A stretch of DNA of 64,000 nucleotides from Deltaproteobacteria bacterium (GTDB lineage: Bacteria > Desulfobacterota > Desulfarculia > Adiutricales > Adiutricaceae), in contig JAISEL010000094.1 of the NCBI GenBank assembly GCA_031264185.1, forward strand, positions 1 through 64,000, in the 5' to 3' direction. The notes below the pieces were generated by a model. That model had not been told where the DNA came from, did not search any database, and saw only the letters and a program-made list of their open reading frames with translations. Below are positions 1,045 to 9,703 of this stretch, in pieces. The position numbers and the translations under genes were made by a program. Position 1 is the stretch's first letter. Each line of letters opens with the position of its first letter.

Positions 1045-3312
1045 TCATTCATCGGTGGTCTTATTTTCAGCAGCGTCATCTCCCGATCCGGGTTCAGCCT
1101 CATACTGGGCCTGAGCTGGAATCTCGTTCAAGGAATTCAGATCCTCGTCTTTAAGAACCCTGGTCTCAGCTTCAAATTTAGACTTTGTTTTTGCCTCAGC
1201 TTTTGCTGCCATTGCCTCAGCTTTTTTCCTAGCCCTTCCTTCAGCTCTGGCATCTTTTGCTTCCTTTTTAAGCTCAGGAGTATTGAAATACTTACGGTAT
1301 AGTTCCTGCCTATTTTCTAATTTAAGCTCGGTGGCAACATCATCGTCTATTAAGCCAAGCTTCCAGTGTTCTAAAGCTGTTTCTATAATTTTGTCCTTAG
1401 CGGCTTGATCAAGATTCTTGTTCTTAGTTTTTTTTCCTGAGCCAGCTTTAATGGGCTCTTTCGGGACAGACTCTTCCCAAACTGCCGGTGAGCCATCCTC
1501 GGAGAAGTTCAATCTAAGTTCAAAAGGTTGTCTTTGTTCAGCAGCAGCGTATCTGGCTTTGGTGAATGTTACTACAAAATTAGTACCTTTGCTGCCTTTT
1601 ATGGCTTCTAAGGCAATTACTGCATCAGCATTATCCTCTTTAGCATTGGATCCACGTTGATCGCCGCTTTTACCGGCATGATGAACAAAGATAATGCTTA
1701 TATTACGTTTTTTTAATTCTTGAAACCAATTATTGACTGGTACCCACGATAAAGGATCGTTACCAAGCGAACTACTAGCTAAAGACGCTAAATTATCTAT
1801 AAAAATAATATCAATACGATATTTTACAATTTAATCATGAATAAGTTTCTGAAAGTTCTTATCTAATAAATCAATATTCTTGTCTTGAGCAATATTTGGA
1901 CAAATAATAAATTTACCATTATTACTGCTACTATTATTATCTTTATTGTCATCACTATTATTAGTATTATCTTTTATATTTAATAGTCTCATCCTTTCTT
2001 GCATCTTTGAGTTAATAAACTCCCCGTCAATATAAAAAACATTCTTAGGCTGTGAGACCATCCAGTCTGATTTTTGGAACGGATAGCTGCCTTCACTGAA
2101 GGCTTTGGCCAGCTCAAGACAAAACCAGCTCTTTCCGACTCCTCTGTCTGAAAAAACTTCCATTATTCCTGGCTGGGGCAAAATTCCTGGAATAATGTCA
2201 GGGATCTCTTGAAACTTTGTTTCTAAAAAAGTCTTTGCTGAGTAACAAATAAGCTCAATTTCCTGTTCTTTGCTGTCTTCCAAGGTAAGATTAAAGTATT
2301 CTTTAGCGAATTTAACAAACTGTTTTCTGTCAATTATTGGATAGACCAGAAGGGCTTCATCGGATGTTATGCCCGTGTTATCAGTGTCAATCAAAAATTT
2401 GAAACTGGAAGGGCGATAAGCCTTAACAGACTGAAAGGTTTCATAGGCCAATCTGCATGATTTAGGATTGACAGAAACTTGAAAAACAATATTCCTACCC
2501 CGCAATCCAGACCAATCCACTTTACCAACAGTATTAAATTCTCCGCCAGGCCAGCTCACAGCAAAATATTGGGTCACATTATTTATTTTGAAGATAGTGT
2601 TATTTAAATTATCACAATTTTCTTCATTGTCAGTAATTATTACGTTATTTTCCGGGAAACGAGAAAGATCTAAAATATTATAAATAGGATATGGTTCAGT
2701 AAAGAAAGATCTTTCAATATTAAAATAGTCACCAGGTTTAGAATAATCTATTATTTGAGGAAAGTGAGGACTGTAACCCATTGACTGATTGTTAGATGTA
2801 AGGCACACATTAAATATTTTAATATATTGATTAAATATTATATTTATTAAACGACCAGAATGATCTTTATAAGAGACTACAATTCCTCTTTTAGTCTTAT
2901 CAATATTGTAATATATATATTTTTTATTAATATCACAATTTATTTTATATTTATTAATACTTTCATCTATGAATTTATCATCTAAAGTTAATATATTTTC
3001 TTGTTTATAGCTATAAACATTATTATAAGGCATAATATCGTTTTTTTTCATTGATATTTGAAAAAATTCAGCAAAACTCAGATAACTGTATTCTTCTGGA
3101 ATTGCCTTTATATATGTATATAAATCAATTAAGTTATTGCCACTCACTAGTGGTTCGGAAGACTTATTCCAAGTGAAATCATTGTGAATAGTATAATCAT
3201 ACCTGCCAGAATAAATTTTATCAACTCCTTCATCGCATAATGGCAATAATTTTTTTATATAAGCGACATGATTAACTCTAGAAATCCGCTCGATATATTC
3301 ATATTCTATCAT
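1045..3312 (-). pseudogene. Primase/RepA-like AAA ATPase of an integrated element, split by an in-frame TAA
   Basis: One continuous reading frame of 756 codons is interrupted only by a TAA at 1831-1833 (codon 494). Residues about 220-310 carry a decayed Toprim-like stretch (VIITDNEENCD, SWPGGEFN, KVDWSGLRGR). Residues 385-400 hold Walker A (GVGKSW) of a RecA/RepA-like AAA_25 ATPase. The Walker B strand (DIIFIDNLASL) and the motif IIFVHHAGKSGDQRGS lie after the stop in the same frame, followed by a charged Ala/Lys/Glu-rich tail. Such proteins serve replication or excision of plasmids and integrative elements. Translation stopping at the TAA would lose Walker B, so the ATPase is probably dead unless the stop is read through. 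It lies 120 bp downstream of the integrase on the same strand and is markedly AT-rich compared with the chromosome. Confidence 0.75.
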
Positions 3313-3432: not shown

Positions 3433-5352
3433 TCAAATTCGTTGATTAATTGGATTAATATATTTAGAATTCTTCAAATGAGATAAATCAATGCCATAGT
3501 CAAGCTTTTCTATTATTTCATTTAGTTTTTCAGCCGGAAATCGACTACCATATGTATTTTGCGCTAATTCAGGTATTTCATGACCGTAAAGTTGTCTGAA
3601 AAAATTATCTTGCAGTCCGTTTTGCTTATAAAAATCCGCAAAAGTATGCCGCAATGAATGGAAAGACTTTTTCTCAAATGTGTGATTTTCTACCTTAAGA
3701 GCATCCCTGATTACATCAGAAAATTGTTTTCCAGGTTGTTTTCCGTACTTTCCTGTGTTTTCAGTTTTCCTTAGCTCAGAAAATAAACGAATGCTGTTCC
3801 TGTCAGATATATTTCTGCAATAATCAATAAAACCTAAATCAATTAATGTGCGATGTACAGGAACTATTCGGACAGCATTTTTATTTTTGAGAGTTTTAGC
3901 ATATCCATCGGCGTCAACGCCTTCAGCATTTATATCAATAATCCAAATGCCGTTTTTATTAGATATATCTTTCGCGTGTAACTGTGAAATTTCTTCCAGC
4001 CGCATTCCAGTGAAAAGGCCGATTAACGGAATCCAAAAGAAAGCAGGGTACTTGAATTGAGCGTTTTTATACTTCGGATGTGAAAAAATAAGTTCCAAAT
4101 CTTTAATTTCAAAAGGAAGTCTCAGGTCAATAATTTGCCTGGTATCAATTATTTGTAACTTTTTAACAGGATTAAATTGAATAAAGCCTTCTGCTTGGCA
4201 CCAATCCAGCAAACTTCCAACAGTTTGGACAAGGTAGTTGACTCTTTTTGATGACAACACTTTAGGATGATTATATTTTAATAGTTCCTCAATAGATTTA
4301 TCTTTATATTGGCTATTACGCATAAAATTTGGGGGCAATTTTAAGAGAATATCTCTGTATTGCCTCATAACAGTTCGATCAATTGAAGCAATAGGTATAT
4401 CACCCATTATTTTGAGAAACAACTGAAGATCTGATTTATGTGCCTCAACCAGATGTTTTTTCCATCGATTTTCAGTTACTTTATTGGCAACAAATTGAGA
4501 TAATGCAACTGAATAAATAATTGACTGAGTTTTTACTTCAATATTTACATTTGTTTGTGATTGACTGCTGTTTATAGGTTGTGAATTTTCAATTTTTACA
4601 TTGGAATTTAATAGATTAAACAGTTGGGATAAAGTATCGTCTTTTGGATCTACTAATTCCTTAATAAATTCATTGGTTGTAAAAGTCCGATTATTATAAT
4701 TCTCAGACTTATCAAAATTGTTTAAAACAATATTTTCTTCCCCAAAAAAATTTCCTTCAGCTCTGTTCAGCAAAATAGTAATATATTTGACTTCAGATTC
4801 CAAAAATAACTTTGTAGCAATCAATTTATCAATAATCGAAGCGTTATCAGCTTGACTTTGATTTATAATTCCTGCTTTCTTTAATGTTGGCAGAACCTCT
4901 TCAGACCATGAAGACAGCGAGTCTTCATTATTGATATCATTCAGTAATTTTTTAATGATATGCTTGCACGTATCAGCATATGAATACTCAGGATGTTCTA
5001 CCTCAATACCAGTAAAAAGAGAAGAAGGCGAACGCGGGCTCAAATTGACAGTATCTTCTTCCAGCTTCATCTGGATGTTTCTGTTGAGCCGGAACCTTAA
5101 TTCTTTCAAGTCCATTTTAGGGTCATCCAACAGACTTTGTAAATCGGAGTACAATTTTCCGGAAATTTCCAGTGCCTTCTGACGGTATGGGGTCATCAGA
5201 CTGAGACGAATTTCCCGACCGAACCGTTCCCTGTACATGACAGGGAATCTGGCCCTGAAATAATAAAAATCTCCCCGCTTATAGATATGAGAAGAAACCC
5301 ACGGCCTGGATTTTTTCCTGGGAACTTTGGAGTCAGCTAATGATTTTTTCAT
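3433..5352 (-). CDS. Tyrosine recombinase (phage-type integrase)
   Basis: This site-specific recombinase would integrate or excise the element to its left. The N-terminus has the HIYKRGDFYYFRARFP signature found at the start of many proteobacterial integrases, followed by a long variable core-binding region. The catalytic domain is intact at the C-terminus: the Arg of GLFTGMRLEEISQ, then HSLRH, then LYGHE, then the nucleophile Tyr in QNTYGSRF. I prefer the ATG at 5352 (MKKSLADSKV, preceded by AAGGCGGC); an in-frame ATG at 5388 would add 12 residues. It reads away from tRNA-Leu, whose 3' end is about 140 bp upstream, the usual geometry for integration into a tRNA gene. The body is AT-rich, consistent with horizontal transfer. 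No second copy of the tRNA 3' end is visible to the left, so the far end of the element is outside the window or lost. Confidence 0.92.
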   Translation of the reverse strand: MKKSLADSKVPRKKSRPWVSSHIYKRGDFYYFRARFPVMYRERFGREIRLSLMTPYRQKALEISGKLYSDLQSLLDDPKMDLKELRFRLNRNIQMKLEEDTVNLSPRSPSSLFTGIEVEHPEYSYADTCKHIIKKLLNDINNEDSLSSWSEEVLPTLKKAGIINQSQADNASIIDKLIATKLFLESEVKYITILLNRAEGNFFGEENIVLNNFDKSENYNNRTFTTNEFIKELVDPKDDTLSQLFNLLNSNVKIENSQPINSSQSQTNVNIEVKTQSIIYSVALSQFVANKVTENRWKKHLVEAHKSDLQLFLKIMGDIPIASIDRTVMRQYRDILLKLPPNFMRNSQYKDKSIEELLKYNHPKVLSSKRVNYLVQTVGSLLDWCQAEGFIQFNPVKKLQIIDTRQIIDLRLPFEIKDLELIFSHPKYKNAQFKYPAFFWIPLIGLFTGMRLEEISQLHAKDISNKNGIWIIDINAEGVDADGYAKTLKNKNAVRIVPVHRTLIDLGFIDYCRNISDRNSIRLFSELRKTENTGKYGKQPGKQFSDVIRDALKVENHTFEKKSFHSLRHTFADFYKQNGLQDNFFRQLYGHEIPELAQNTYGSRFPAEKLNEIIEKLDYGIDLSHLKNSKYINPINQRI

Positions 5353-5376
5353 GACTGCCGCCTTGAAAAAAGGTGG

Positions 5377-5402
5377 TTTGTGGCACACATTTGTGGCACA
5401 CA
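5377..5402. repeat. Two perfect tandem 13-bp repeats between integrase and tRNA-Leu
   Basis: TTTGTGGCACACA occurs twice back to back (5377-5389 and 5390-5402), just upstream of the integrase start and about 90 bp from the tRNA 3' end. The position suits arm-type recombinase sites or binding sites of an excision factor. The function is inferred from location only. Confidence 0.6.
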
Positions 5403-5492
5403 GGCCAAAAATGGGTCAAGCAGTCATGCGAAAAAGTCATCAAATCCGAAAAGCTAAATGATTGTAATCACTTAACTTTTATTTTTTACAGT

Positions 5493-5578
5493 TGGTGCCG
5501 AAGGCCGGACTTGAACCGGCACGGGCGTTGCCCACCACCCCCTCAAGATGGCGTGTCTACCATTTCCACCACTTCGGC
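5493..5578 (-). tRNA. tRNA-Leu (anticodon GAG)
   Basis: The minus strand folds as a class II tRNA of 86 nt with an encoded CCA. The acceptor starts GCCGAAG and pairs with CTTCGGC. The anticodon stem CCATC/GGTGG encloses TTGAGGG, giving anticodon GAG. There is a long variable arm and a T-loop GTTCAAGTC. Its 3' end faces the integrase gene, making it the likely attachment site of the element on the left. Confidence 0.95.
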
Positions 5579-5588
5579 CTCTACTTTT

Positions 5589-5664
5589 TGGTGGGCGGTA
5601 GAGGATTCGAACCTCCGACTTCCACCGTGTGAGGATGGCACTCTAGCCGCTGAGTTAACCGCCC
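5589..5664 (-). tRNA. tRNA-Val (anticodon CAC)
   Basis: A 76-nt cloverleaf with encoded CCA. The acceptor GGGCGGT pairs with ACCGCCC. The anticodon stem CCATC/GGTGG encloses CTCACAC, giving anticodon CAC, and the T-loop is GTTCGAATC. It lies 10 bp upstream of tRNA-Leu on the same strand, so the two are probably co-transcribed. Confidence 0.95.
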
Positions 5665-5683
5665 AAAAGATTTGAGGTACTAA

Positions 5684-5798
5684 TGACAGTAAAATTCGGT
5701 TACCTTTACGAGGTCCTATAATCTTGTGGGCGGTTCTTAAAGCAGAAGACTTGTAGGCTCACAAGAAGGGTAACCTAATTTTGCTGTCAATACACTAG
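5684..5798. repeat. Palindromic ~106-bp repeat, copy A
   Basis: The outer arms TGACAGTAAAATTCGGTTACC (5684 on) and, in reverse complement, TGACAGCAAAATTAGGTTACC (to 5789) form an imperfect inverted repeat. An inner stem (CTTGTGGGC with GCTCACAAG) flanks AAAGCAGAAGACTTG. A near-identical copy lies at 6743-6848. It contains no ORF, and the size and terminal inverted repeats fit a MITE-like or structured-RNA element. It begins 20 bp beyond tRNA-Val. Confidence 0.75.
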
Positions 5799-6041
5799 GA
5801 CAAATTAGAATGGAATTCACTTTTGAGGTCTATTATTATTTCTATTCTAATACCAGATATTTTAGTATATTGCCGTTTCATTCGAAAGCCATGTTCAGCC
5901 AGAATTCCAAAAAATTTCGCACCAAATAGGGGGAAATGGCAATAACAAAAACTACTAACCAAGCATTTTAGTGATAAACAGATAAAAAACAGCTATTAAC
6001 ATATTATATAATAGATGTAATTATATACCTTAGGATATATA

Positions 6042-6306
6042 TTATGGCGATTTAACCCAAAAAATTATTAAACTGCCCATGAGAACAACAAAAATTCCTG
6101 TTACAGGTAGATTTTCCTACATATTTGATGCGCTTATATCTGTTTTTTATATCAGATTTAAATGCTTCAAACTTTAAATCAAAACTATTTTCCATCTTGT
6201 CCAATTTAGAATTGAACTCACTTCTAAGCTCTATCATCTCTGTCTTAAGGCCAGAGATATCAGTTGTAGTCACCGATAATTTTTTATTAATATCGACAAT
6301 TTCCAA
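6042..6306 (-). pseudogene. Remnant of a small coiled-coil protein with a C-terminal membrane helix
   Basis: The open part reads from DINKKLSVTTTD into a heptad-rich helix (ELRSEFNSKLDKMENSFDLKF). The frame then goes out of register: about 85 bases before the end, the +1 frame encodes ENLPVTGIFVVLMGSLIIFW, a clean membrane helix ending at a TAA at 6042-6044. The coiled-coil-plus-TM layout is common in small membrane-anchored proteins of the DUF1640 kind, but I cannot assign a family firmly. Upstream, the same frame continues back to a stop without an ATG, so the N-terminus is also damaged. It sits between the two palindromic repeats. The remainder of 5799-6733 shows no other gene. Confidence 0.5.
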
Positions 6307-6733
6307 TTCACGCGTTATATCACGCCGTGTAAAGTCCTTCCATGTTGGAACTCAAAGCAGAACCAACTGCTTACCCGGAAGATGCGCTGGCATTCGATTG
6401 GTCTGACGGCTGAAAATTAGTTTCGGTGCGCATGAATTTCCTTTCTTGCCCAAAAGTTAATTATCATGATATCAGTAAGTTTAGAATTCCTCAACAAACA
6501 CCTGACACCTTTTTACACTGAGGTGGTAAAAGACCATCAAGCAGGACAGTCTAAGATGGCCAACCGTACATTTGGCCAAAACTCTTCATGCAGCCCACAA
6601 ATCCATAGGACGAAGTTGACCGCCTTAATCGCTGAGGCACCCCATAACTATGAAATCTCTAGACCCCAATTTTTTCACGTCCCGATCAAAAGTCGGTCTG
6701 TCAATTTCAACCGCAGTTAAGGGTTGTTCCTGT

Positions 6734-6857
6734 CTAGCGAATTGACAGTAAAATTCGGCTACATTTATGAGGCACCATAATCTTGTGGACGGCTCTTGAA
6801 GCAGAAGACTTGAAGGCTCACAAAAAGGGTAACCTAGTTTTGCCGTCAGTACACTAG
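6734..6857. repeat. Palindromic ~106-bp repeat, copy B (with CTAG ends)
   Basis: The core at 6743-6848 matches copy A almost base for base, with scattered substitutions that mostly keep the arms paired. Here the element can be extended to CTAG at both ends (6734-6737 and 6854-6857), with CTAGCGAATTGAC mirrored by GTCAGTACACTAG. It has the same orientation as copy A and lies about 1.05 kb from it. Confidence 0.75.
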
Positions 6858-6960
6858 CTCAAATCATCCCAAAAGACAAGAGCTGTTTTTACGACTTGAG
6901 GAGTTAATTTAAAATAACACAAATAGTCTCTTTTAATTATCTTAATCTCTATTATGGCTA

Positions 6961-7467
6961 TTATACATTAAAAACAGCCCTTATCTTATAGATTTTTCTG
7001 GCCGGCATCTCATAGATCTCGTCTATTCCGCTTTCTTTTTTAAGGGACTCTAAAAAATCCTTCAATTGACCCTGATCCTTGTAACAAAACGTAAACCAGA
7101 TATTTAAGTCATTATTTCTAAGGTAATTATGCGATACTTGTTCAGAAGAAGTAACTAAATCACTAAAAAAGTCTATCTTGTCAGCCGGAACTCTGGCCGC
7201 ACACAGGGTCGAACGGTAGCCAAGCTGACTTTGGTTAAATATAGCTCCTATCCGCCTGATAAATTTCCGTTCTTTTAAAGCCTGAACTCTTTTTAAAACC
7301 TCTGCATCGGTTAAAGAGAGATTATTATCCAGATTAATTTTCTCGGCCAAAAGAGCGTAAGGTTTGGATACCAGAGGAAAACAGTCCTGGAGGGCATTCA
7401 TAATCAGGGAATCTATAGGATCTAAATCACTTACAGGCAAAATTATCTGACCTTTTTTTTGGTTCAT
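6961..7467 (-). CDS. ahbA: Siroheme decarboxylase subunit AhbA (Lrp/AsnC-like)
   Basis: AhbA forms the siroheme decarboxylase with AhbB; the enzyme turns siroheme into 12,18-didecarboxysiroheme in the alternative heme pathway of sulfate reducers and archaea. The 168-residue protein has the AsnC-type winged-helix start (LDPIDSLIMNALQDCFPL) and then the family signatures RRIGAIFN, LGYRSTLCAARVP, SHNYLRNNDLNIWFT and ARKIYKIRAVF. The STLCAA and HNYLR blocks identify AhbA rather than AhbB. Its start overlaps the end of ahbD by 41 bp, indicating translational coupling. It is last in the ahbC-ahbD-ahbA cluster. Its partner ahbB lies almost 6 kb away on the other strand. Confidence 0.9.
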   Translation of the reverse strand: MNQKKGQIILPVSDLDPIDSLIMNALQDCFPLVSKPYALLAEKINLDNNLSLTDAEVLKRVQALKERKFIRRIGAIFNQSQLGYRSTLCAARVPADKIDFFSDLVTSSEQVSHNYLRNNDLNIWFTFCYKDQGQLKDFLESLKKESGIDEIYEMPARKIYKIRAVFNV

Positions 7468-8482
7468 GCGGGCAGAGAGGCTCTGAACCTAAAAAGTTAC
7501 CGGCGGAGTGAGCTCTGGCCCGGCAACCGCCGCAAATTGACCAGTATTCACAGTCCCTGCAGCGTCCTAAGTACTCTTCCCTGTTTCTCAGGCTTTTAAA
7601 CAAAGCCGAATTTTCGTATACGGCCATGGGGTGTTCTTGCCGGACATTACCGGCAGCCAAAGGCAGATAGCCGCAGGCCCTGACTTCCCCTGCGTGGCTG
7701 ACAAACATGAATCCCTGGCCGCCCAAACAGCCGCGTCCGCTGTGCCGGGAGCCTTTTATCCCCAATTGACGGCCTATCCGGTTGTACTGGGGAGCGCAGG
7801 TAGCCTTAAAATCCAGTTTCAAAAACGGTTCCCTAGTTTTTAGATCTACCAAAGCCTCTTCGTAGTCTTCCGGCCGGACAGATGATTCTGAAGCCAAGTT
7901 TAAAGCCCGCCCCACCGGAACCAATAAAAAAACATGATGGGCTATGGCCCCAAGTTCTTCGGCTAATGAGGTAATGGCCGGAATTTGGGAGATATTATAA
8001 GCGGTTATAGTAGTATTGATCTGAAAAGGCAGACGTTCCGCCCTCATGATCCCTACCCCTTGGACCAAACTGTCAAAGGAACCGGCCAAACCTCTAAAAC
8101 TGTCATGTTCCTTAGCGGTAGGACCGTCCAGACTGACACTTAACCGGGCCACTCCAGATGCTTTAATCTCTTTGGCCAAAGACGGAGTCATCATAGTTCC
8201 GTTGGTAGATAGGAGCATCCTCATGCCCAGAGACGTTCCCAGATAGGCCAGATCCAGGATATCCGGCCTCATTAGCGGTTCTCCCCCGCTCAAAATGACC
8301 ATCGGCTTTGGTTCCCAAAGGGCTAATTGTCTGAGCAGATTTTGAGATTCCTCCGGTTCTAACTGACCGGGCAGAGGCTCTGAAACGGCTTCGGCCCGGC
8401 AGTGACGGCAGGCTAAATTACAGGCTGCCGTCGTTTCCCAGGCCACCAGGCGAGGTGGGGCTATTTTTCCAAAACCGTCCAT
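7427..8482 (-). CDS. ahbD: Radical SAM heme synthase AhbD
   Basis: AhbD oxidatively decarboxylates the two propionates of Fe-coproporphyrin III to give heme b, the last step of the siroheme-dependent route. The N-terminal radical SAM cluster motif is CNLACRHC, preceded by PPRLVAWETTAA. GGEP follows the barrel start, and NTTITAYNI and HHVFLLVPVGRA are typical of AhbD. The C-terminal SPASM-like region binds an auxiliary cluster through CLGGQGF, CGYL, CRDCEYWSICGGC and CPHEP. I take the ATG at 8482; a TTG one codon earlier is possible. It starts 6 bp beyond the ahbC stop and overlaps ahbA. About 350 residues is the normal family length. Confidence 0.92.
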   Translation of the reverse strand: MDGFGKIAPPRLVAWETTAACNLACRHCRAEAVSEPLPGQLEPEESQNLLRQLALWEPKPMVILSGGEPLMRPDILDLAYLGTSLGMRMLLSTNGTMMTPSLAKEIKASGVARLSVSLDGPTAKEHDSFRGLAGSFDSLVQGVGIMRAERLPFQINTTITAYNISQIPAITSLAEELGAIAHHVFLLVPVGRALNLASESSVRPEDYEEALVDLKTREPFLKLDFKATCAPQYNRIGRQLGIKGSRHSGRGCLGGQGFMFVSHAGEVRACGYLPLAAGNVRQEHPMAVYENSALFKSLRNREEYLGRCRDCEYWSICGGCRARAHSAGNFLGSEPLCPHEPKKRSDNFACK

Positions 8483-8488
8483 CAAAAG

Positions 8489-9703
8489 CTACATTTCGGC
8501 AGCCAGAAAAGTTCTGCCGGAGGCGGATATTTCTTCGTCAGTTAAATAACAGGCCGGATCCGGAGCCCAGATATCGCCTGAGGCAAAGTCCGCTCTGGCT
8601 CTCAAACCGCCTCCGCAATGGTACAGAAAAACACAAATCCGGCAGCGGCCGGTCAGGTATTTTTTCTTCTCTTTCAGCTTCATCAGCAGTTCGTTAGACT
8701 CATCGTGCCATATTTCGGCAAAAGGTTTCTCCCGAACTGAGCCCAAAACCCTGGTCCGCCAGAACTGGTCGGGATAGACAGCCCCGTCCCAGGAAATAGA
8801 CCCAATGCCGTGGCCGGAACTGCTGCCGCCGTTTAAACGTAGCAGTTCCAGGACATTTTCCGCCTCTTCATGGCGTCCTTCTTCTTTCATCTTTAAATAC
8901 AGGTAAGGCCCGTCGGCCTGATTGTCGACCGTCAGAACTTCCGGACTATAACCTTTCCGGTAAAGCTGGGCAGTCCTTTGGGCGATTAAATCGACCGCTT
9001 TTCTGGTCTCTTCGGCCGAAAGTTTTTCGGATAAAAGATCTGTTCTCTGGCCGTTATCCACCAGATGATAAAAACATATTCTGGGAATAGACTCAGCCTC
9101 AAGTAAATCAAAGATGGTGCCAATATCCTGGTAGTTACTTCTGGTCATAGTAAGGCGAAGACCGACTTTTAAACCTGCCTGTTTGGCTATGGCAATGGCC
9201 TTTAAAGCCTGTTCAAAAGCCCCTTTTTGGCCTCTCATGAAGTCATGGTGTTCGGAAAGACCATCCAGACTTATACCGACATAGGAAAGGCCGATGTCTT
9301 TGAGCTTAGTGGCGTATTTTTCCGTTAAAAGAAGTCCGTTGGTGGACAGGACGGCTCTTGTTCCGTTTCTGACCGCCAAATCCACTAACTTGAAAATATG
9401 AGGATGCAGAAGAGGCTCGCCGCCGGAAAATAGAATAACCGGGACACCGAAATCCGTCAGATGTTGGACCAAGGCCCTGGCTTCGTTATAGTTGAGTTCG
9501 TCGTCAGCTGGCTTTTTTGTGGCCGAGGCATAACAGTGAATACAGGACAGATTACAGGCTCGGGTCATATTCCAGGCGATGACAGGTTTTTTGTCTTCGG
9601 AAAATTGGAGCAGATGGCTGGGCAGCTCTCTGGACAGGCGCCGGTAGCGCAACAGGTCAGATGGCTCCACCGTGCCGCAATAGAGTTTGGAAATGCCGAT
9701 CAT
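8489..9703 (-). CDS. ahbC: Radical SAM protein AhbC (12,18-didecarboxysiroheme deacetylase)
   Basis: AhbC removes the two acetate side chains of 12,18-didecarboxysiroheme to give Fe-coproporphyrin III. The family opening ISKLYCGTVEPSDLLRYRR is present, followed by the radical SAM motif CNLSCIHC, GGEPLLHP and GISLDG. CRICVFLYHCGG near the C-terminus serves the auxiliary cluster, and the end carries WAPDPACYLTDEEI, typical of AhbC. I prefer the ATG at 9703 (MIGISKLYCG, with GAAAGG upstream); the frame stays open to an ATG at 9799, which would add 32 residues without family support. It is first in the ahbC-ahbD-ahbA cluster. One oddity is LYHCGGGLRAR, where related proteins usually have a shorter CGG-N form. 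Confidence 0.92.
   Translation of the reverse strand: MIGISKLYCGTVEPSDLLRYRRLSRELPSHLLQFSEDKKPVIAWNMTRACNLSCIHCYASATKKPADDELNYNEARALVQHLTDFGVPVILFSGGEPLLHPHIFKLVDLAVRNGTRAVLSTNGLLLTEKYATKLKDIGLSYVGISLDGLSEHHDFMRGQKGAFEQALKAIAIAKQAGLKVGLRLTMTRSNYQDIGTIFDLLEAESIPRICFYHLVDNGQRTDLLSEKLSAEETRKAVDLIAQRTAQLYRKGYSPEVLTVDNQADGPYLYLKMKEEGRHEEAENVLELLRLNGGSSSGHGIGSISWDGAVYPDQFWRTRVLGSVREKPFAEIWHDESNELLMKLKEKKKYLTGRCRICVFLYHCGGGLRARADFASGDIWAPDPACYLTDEEISASGRTFLAAEM

Follow-up and report, generated by a model that had tools for sequence, protein, structure and literature searches.

The two near-identical palindromic elements, here called A and B, that lie next to tRNA genes in the window (the whole stretch of 64,000 nucleotides that was analysed) are best read as MITEs of the IS630/Tc1-mariner type, DNA elements that cannot move on their own. 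Our overall reading, in which we have good confidence, is that both derive from an IS630/Tc1-mariner transposon and moved by cut-and-paste at a TA within CTAG, and that the pair, together with a dead gene that it encloses, is now situated at the -10 TA of the promoter of a tRNA pair. The elements represent a new and small family, found so far in one genome, of the known IS630-type MITE kind but with an unusual insertion site.

The earlier note had described two near-identical palindromes in one orientation beside tRNA genes, with long imperfect inverted arms and with CTAG at both ends of copy B. The pair is real: the elements share one orientation, are 1059 bp apart and are bordered by the tRNA-Val(CAC)/tRNA-Leu(GAG) genes on one side and by the gene of a 168-aa protein on the other (Table 1). 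They form a direct repeat of 122 nt with 87% identity in a slightly shifted frame (5684-5805 / 6743-6864), or 101/122 identical positions once the terminal repeats fix the boundaries. The arms, present in both copies, are imperfect inverted terminal repeats of 29 bp set within CTAG (consensus in the inward reading: TAGTGTAYYGACRGYAAAATTCGGTTACC). The proposed comparison of insertion-site duplications gave a mixed picture, with TA in CTAG found at both ends of B, as the note had claimed for this copy, and at the right end of A, but with the left end of A out of register (GGTACTAA) and preceded by G, not C. This end is degenerate, and the TA on that side is thus uncertain. Neither element has any coding capacity; no ORF of at least 60 aa overlaps A or B.

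Table 1. Features around elements A and B (positions in the window)
Feature	Position	Strand	Remarks
tRNA-Leu (GAG)	5493..5578	-	
tRNA-Val (CAC)	5589..5664	-	
MITE copy A	5676..5797	+	122 bp; bounds set by terminal repeats
A left terminal repeat	5676-5704		6 mismatches to consensus; damage in first 8 bases, GGTACTAA
A right terminal repeat	5769-5797		1 mismatch
Relic of small coiled-coil/membrane protein gene	~6042..6496	-	sister is an open 176-aa ORF on C116
MITE copy B	6735..6856	+	122 bp; CTAG at both ends
B left terminal repeat	6735-6763		4 mismatches
B right terminal repeat	6828-6856		2 mismatches
Candidate stranded ancestral promoter	6851..6880	-	C plus TTGTCT (-35) at 6880-6874; 17-bp spacer at 6873-6857
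-10 position of candidate promoter	6856-6851	-	now the first six bases of the B right terminal repeat, TAGTGT
Upstream neighbour gene, 168-aa protein	6961..7467	-	conserved

The note had also proposed that substitutions between the copies mostly preserve pairing and that a conserved inner loop suggests an RNA. We consider a structured or regulatory RNA family (a small RNA or a tRNA-leader element) very improbable. Copy A does fold better than its shuffled versions (z -5.9, 0/200 as good), but copy B stays close to them (z -1.5, 12/200 as good). On the structure of A, 32 of 39 pairs are invariant between the copies; among the 7 that vary, 6 are broken in B, 1 turns into G-U and 0 are compensatory, so that the suggested folding and covariation check speaks against preserved pairing. 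The Rfam search of positions 5300-7600 returned tRNA-type matches only, a MITE on another contig (C113, see below) combines the same ends with a different interior, and the inner loop corresponds in register to the right subterminal stretch of that MITE family's parent transposon (C74, see below). The pair counts and the lack of an Rfam match led us to reject the RNA element.

The search for further copies was answered in two ways: the full interior occurs only twice in the 4.4-Mb assembly and in none of the 36 family relatives searched, whereas the terminal repeat is found genome-wide. A 21-base pattern of the repeat matched 13 sites in the own genome, and a 24-base pattern with up to 3 mismatches matched 15 (reversed control patterns: 1 and 0 sites, respectively); these counts include the ends of A and B, four among the 13 and three among the 15, and the remaining sites fall at 12 other loci, mostly as single decayed ends. 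One of the family, the 110-bp MITE at C113:40828-40937, has these ends around a different interior. Among own-genome ends with up to 6 mismatches, 11 of 18 are preceded by C and start with TA. Because the terminal repeats recur across the genome, A and B are not a mere local duplication, and this candidate was rejected. Integron-type recombination sites or a plain duplication unrelated to transposition would also leave two direct copies about 1 kb apart, each an imperfect inverted repeat, but such an origin is hardly credible given that these ends recur at many further loci and bound a DDE_3 element on both sides, and that no attC consensus was seen by eye. Beyond the own genome, the terminal repeat had no match in 40 other genomes of the order or in 394 other genomes of the phylum; the 29-base pattern with 3 mismatches was found in the own genome only, among 395, and an exact 22-base pattern matched nothing in the contigs of other genomes. 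An origin from a phage or plasmid was discarded, as blastn with copy A returned nothing from phages and plasmids and the pattern scan of viral contigs was empty.

The ends sort by their subterminal bases into a left type and a right type, and A and B are likely to be a left end and a right end joined together. A profile built solely from elements that lie outside the window recovered B, for both types in the expected register and above all 600 shuffles, with weak scores (E 1.6 and 0.38) and, for the left type, with two chance places elsewhere in the window outscoring B; it did not find copy A. The match being weak for B and absent for A, the joining of the ends is likely rather than proven. 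Two further profile models, R1 and R2, gave 23 and 25 own-genome matches at E up to 10, but their scores for A and B are circular, since both copies were included in the training. Other short elements were encountered in the same genome. On C48 (L039, 736-1222), an element of about 485 bp has apparently right-type ends on both sides (8035 plus; 8460-8519 minus on C48). On C113 (L047, ~936-1120), a second short inverted-repeat element (ends: TTAACCCGGCGGATAATTATGATA) directly adjoins the terminal TA of the 110-bp MITE, and loci L037 and L038 have related ends; as similar ends (TATTACTCCGGCGGATAATT) flank the DDE_3 loci L049, L053 and L064, it looks like another IS630-type MITE family.

A decayed relative points to the transposon type of A and B. 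The 1668-bp segment C74:115973-117640 has both ends (6 and 5 mismatches in 29) around a DDE_3 transposase recognised at E 1.7e-12, with broken frames. The terminal repeats common to this IS630-type transposon and to other sites, located at TA within CTAG, bear out the suggestion of a mobile MITE made in the earlier note. A 56-residue stretch of the broken transposase is related to sequences from many bacterial phyla, and 80 of the 466 found were retained. A TA-anchored arm pair passing the filter was present at 24 of these 80 transposase loci, including same-genome copies (L190/L192 and L207/L211); in 19 of the 24 the left arm starts with TAGTGT. The locus nearest to the A/B family (L194, arms TAGTGTTCTGAC/TAGTGTACTGAC) encodes DDE_3 and helix-turn-helix domains. 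The TAGTGT starts, the TA and the surrounding CTAG place the elements with IS630/Tc1-mariner. An intact transposon with these ends was found at none of the 30 DDE_3 loci examined with flanks (of 66), the broken C74 copy alone carrying them, and Pfam analysis of the solo-end elements on C146 and C48 revealed an AAA-ATPase_like relic and the end of an unrelated synthetase, with no transposase. The own genome is heavily colonised by IS630-type elements: DDE_3 (PF13358) has 66 matches, many of them fragmentary, with stops or in broken frames. A and B would then consist of two 29-bp terminal repeats with short left and right subterminal stretches of the transposon, without its transposase, and would have been inserted by cut-and-paste into a TA within CTAG by a transposase of the type that has decayed on C74.

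The upstream sequences of related tRNA loci point to the nature of the insertion site. The search with the tRNA pair yielded loci with this tRNA-Val or the pair in 22 family relatives (L219-L240), and all 22 carry the pattern TTGNNN-17-TANNNT in the 75 nt that precede tRNA-Val (0.6/22 expected from shuffles), with C before TTG at the site used in 21 of them and with the -10 ending 12 to 43 nt from the tRNA. In a different tRNA-Val group, taken as a comparison, 1 of 7 loci has the pattern; the anticodon TAC was typed for four of these seven and for a second tRNA-Val of the own genome. In the window, the 75 nt in front of tRNA-Val do not contain the pattern. Three matches occur on the minus strand from 5665 to 6930: two fall in the middle piece that separates A from B, with ends at 6466 and 6032, and in the third, CTTGTCT-17-TAGTGT, the TA coincides exactly with the outer end of B. 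In a profile built from the 22 sites (for L227, the upstream one of two promoter matches was used), the B-end site is placed 7th among 127,940 positions of the window when the -10 is counted in, 19th for the -35 plus five bases, and 106th for the -35 and spacer without the -10. It is the best site in 5665-6960 minus by the first two measures and is outscored by 5943 minus in the third. A general pattern scan found promoter-like sites at the level of shuffled sequence (4 vs 3.8) and no terminator-like sites. The flank beyond B aligned only weakly (80/2000 shuffles as good) with that of G015, the nearest relative and the one within the genus that shares the gene order, and the promoter pattern of the 22 relatives was relied on instead. 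The neighbour gene, whose product we take to be a siroheme decarboxylase of the AhbA/AhbB type, precedes the tRNA pair in 15 of the 22 relatives with gaps of 97-821 bp, versus 1299 bp here; the other 7 had no match to it within the locus sequence compared. The promoter pattern and ranks, taken together with these gaps, suggest that A, the dead gene and B (~1.18 kb) probably separate the ancestral -35 from the tRNAs, and we infer that the match at the outer end of B is the ancestral promoter.

On the other flank of the tRNA pair, near the 3' side of tRNA-Leu, starts the gene of a 651-aa tyrosine integrase (Phage_integrase, DUF6538; 3433-5388 minus), with a perfect 13-bp tandem repeat (TTTGTGGCACACA, 5377-5402) at its start and followed by a gene for a 493-aa AAA_25 protein (1831-3312 minus). 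The two genes are likely to belong to an island that integrated next to this tRNA; inside the window, the end of tRNA-Leu is not clearly repeated.

The middle piece, about 940 bp long, contains the broken small gene that the earlier note had pointed out. Its relatives in the genome are a coiled-coil ORF of 176 aa on C116, which is still open, and further copies on C94 and C60; the Pfam search with the coiled-coil protein gave a CCDC90-like match below the cut-off. These sisters lack such terminal repeats, and the idea that the dead gene is the MITEs' own passenger was rejected. In the genome, L248 (C116, 1733-2326), L249 (C94) and L250 (C60) are dispersed coiled-coil genes with a hydrophobic C-terminus and internal tandem repeats.

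How the pair and the dead gene came together may be explained in more than one way. When joined at one TA, the flanks read GATTTGAG-GTAG-CTCAAATC; this perfect palindrome of 8 bp agrees with one common target of the outer ends, although the left end of A is damaged and a TA is a short sequence. We would guess that A and B mark, with their outer ends, one insertion site. Such a site could have been created by a composite transposon, in which A, the middle piece and B moved together using the outer end of each copy (left for A, right for B), in the manner of Tn3-derived TIME-COMPs or IS630-associated composite transposons. This is a tentative proposal, for which we would not give an even chance: the outer ends flank a single promoter position, the palindrome GATTTGAG/CTCAAATC agrees with it and the 1.2 kb is missing from the relatives, but the left end of A is damaged with an uncertain TA and a preceding G, the A-gene-B unit is present once only, and the dead gene elsewhere is not flanked by MITEs. 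A stepwise origin, which in our opinion could equally well be right or wrong, would begin with one MITE in the -10 TA, followed by a second MITE-bearing segment acquired by homologous recombination between MITEs (from a circle or by duplication) or by later insertions that separated the two copies. It agrees with the direct repetition of A and B, as left by single-crossover integration or tandem duplication, with their likeness running 8 bases past the right ends (5805/6864) and with the sisters on C116, C94 and C60 being free of such terminal repeats. It takes more steps than one insertion, and the assembly is without a second MITE copy or a second junction of MITE and dead gene. The arrangement may thus have arisen by transposition of a composite, by an addition through a single crossover between MITEs, or by an insertion that entered between two MITEs at a later time.

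To our knowledge, the sequence of RUP, the repeat unit of pneumococcus, is unrelated to that of A and B, and that of the Correia/NEMIS elements of Neisseria differs from it; the similarities lie in organisation. In PMC2229807, RUP is described as a 107-bp element linked to IS630-Spn1, with more than 100 highly conserved copies. It is like A and B in its size (~107-122 bp), lack of a gene, TA ends, terminal repeats common with an IS630-family transposon and intergenic location, whereas the interior of A/B is known from two copies at 83% and the family is decayed. The Correia/NEMIS elements, according to PMC2229807 and PMC10969869, are 105-155 bp long, have TA termini and long terminal repeats, lie near promoters and affect expression; they are comparable in size range, termini, repeats and promoter-side insertion, except that here no TTGNNN-17-TANNNT promoter is present within 75 nt of the tRNA. 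IS630-type elements insert at TA and duplicate it, as stated in PMC2170065, where the preference of IS630/ISY100 for CTAG appears in a cited title. A and B resemble these Tc1/mariner-type cut-and-paste elements in the TA within CTAG at both ends of B and at the right end of A, but encode no transposase, and the only full-length element found with their ends is broken. In TIME-COMPs, Tn3-derived MITEs bound composites, also in direct orientation (PMC13367494), just as two miniature elements bound a passenger segment in A-gene-B; those are of the Tn3 family with other termini, while A-gene-B is known from one site and its mobilisation is putative. MITEs that carry or alter promoters were reported before (PMC10969869). 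Thus IS630-type MITEs (RUP), MITE-bounded composites (of Tn3 type) and promoter-affecting MITEs are already known, and in the titles and abstracts of a limited literature collection no IS630-type MITE in a tRNA promoter was found.

The order of events and the present transcription are both matters that we infer from the arrangement. If A, the dead gene and B occupy the -10 TA of the tRNA-Val/tRNA-Leu promoter, its -35 and spacer would be stranded beyond B, 1.2 kb from the tRNAs. The terminal repeat starts with TAGTGT, a TANNNT hexamer that might serve the stranded -35 as its -10, in which case transcription could run inward over 1.18 kb. The tRNAs may then be read by long read-through, either from this -35 combined with the TAGTGT of the repeat or from some promoter between A and B; this is a guess, as is the alternative that they are read only weakly, with the second tRNA-Val (TAC) of the genome as partial cover. 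The most specific version, in which an IS630-type MITE-bounded composite hit the tRNA -10, TAGTGT acts as the -10 and both tRNAs are processed out of a transcript whose 1.2-kb leader consists of two MITEs and a dead gene, is unlikely to hold in all its parts.

Taken alone, A and B add another IS630-derived MITE family to an IS-rich genome. Of more use is their placement, as a housekeeping tRNA promoter kept in 22 of 22 relatives would here be interrupted by mobile and dead DNA of about 1.2 kb. The landing site raises the question of how these tRNAs are still made. It could serve to test, in nature, if terminal inverted repeats are able to provide a -10 box or if the tRNA-Val(CAC)/tRNA-Leu(GAG) pair can be left almost silent.
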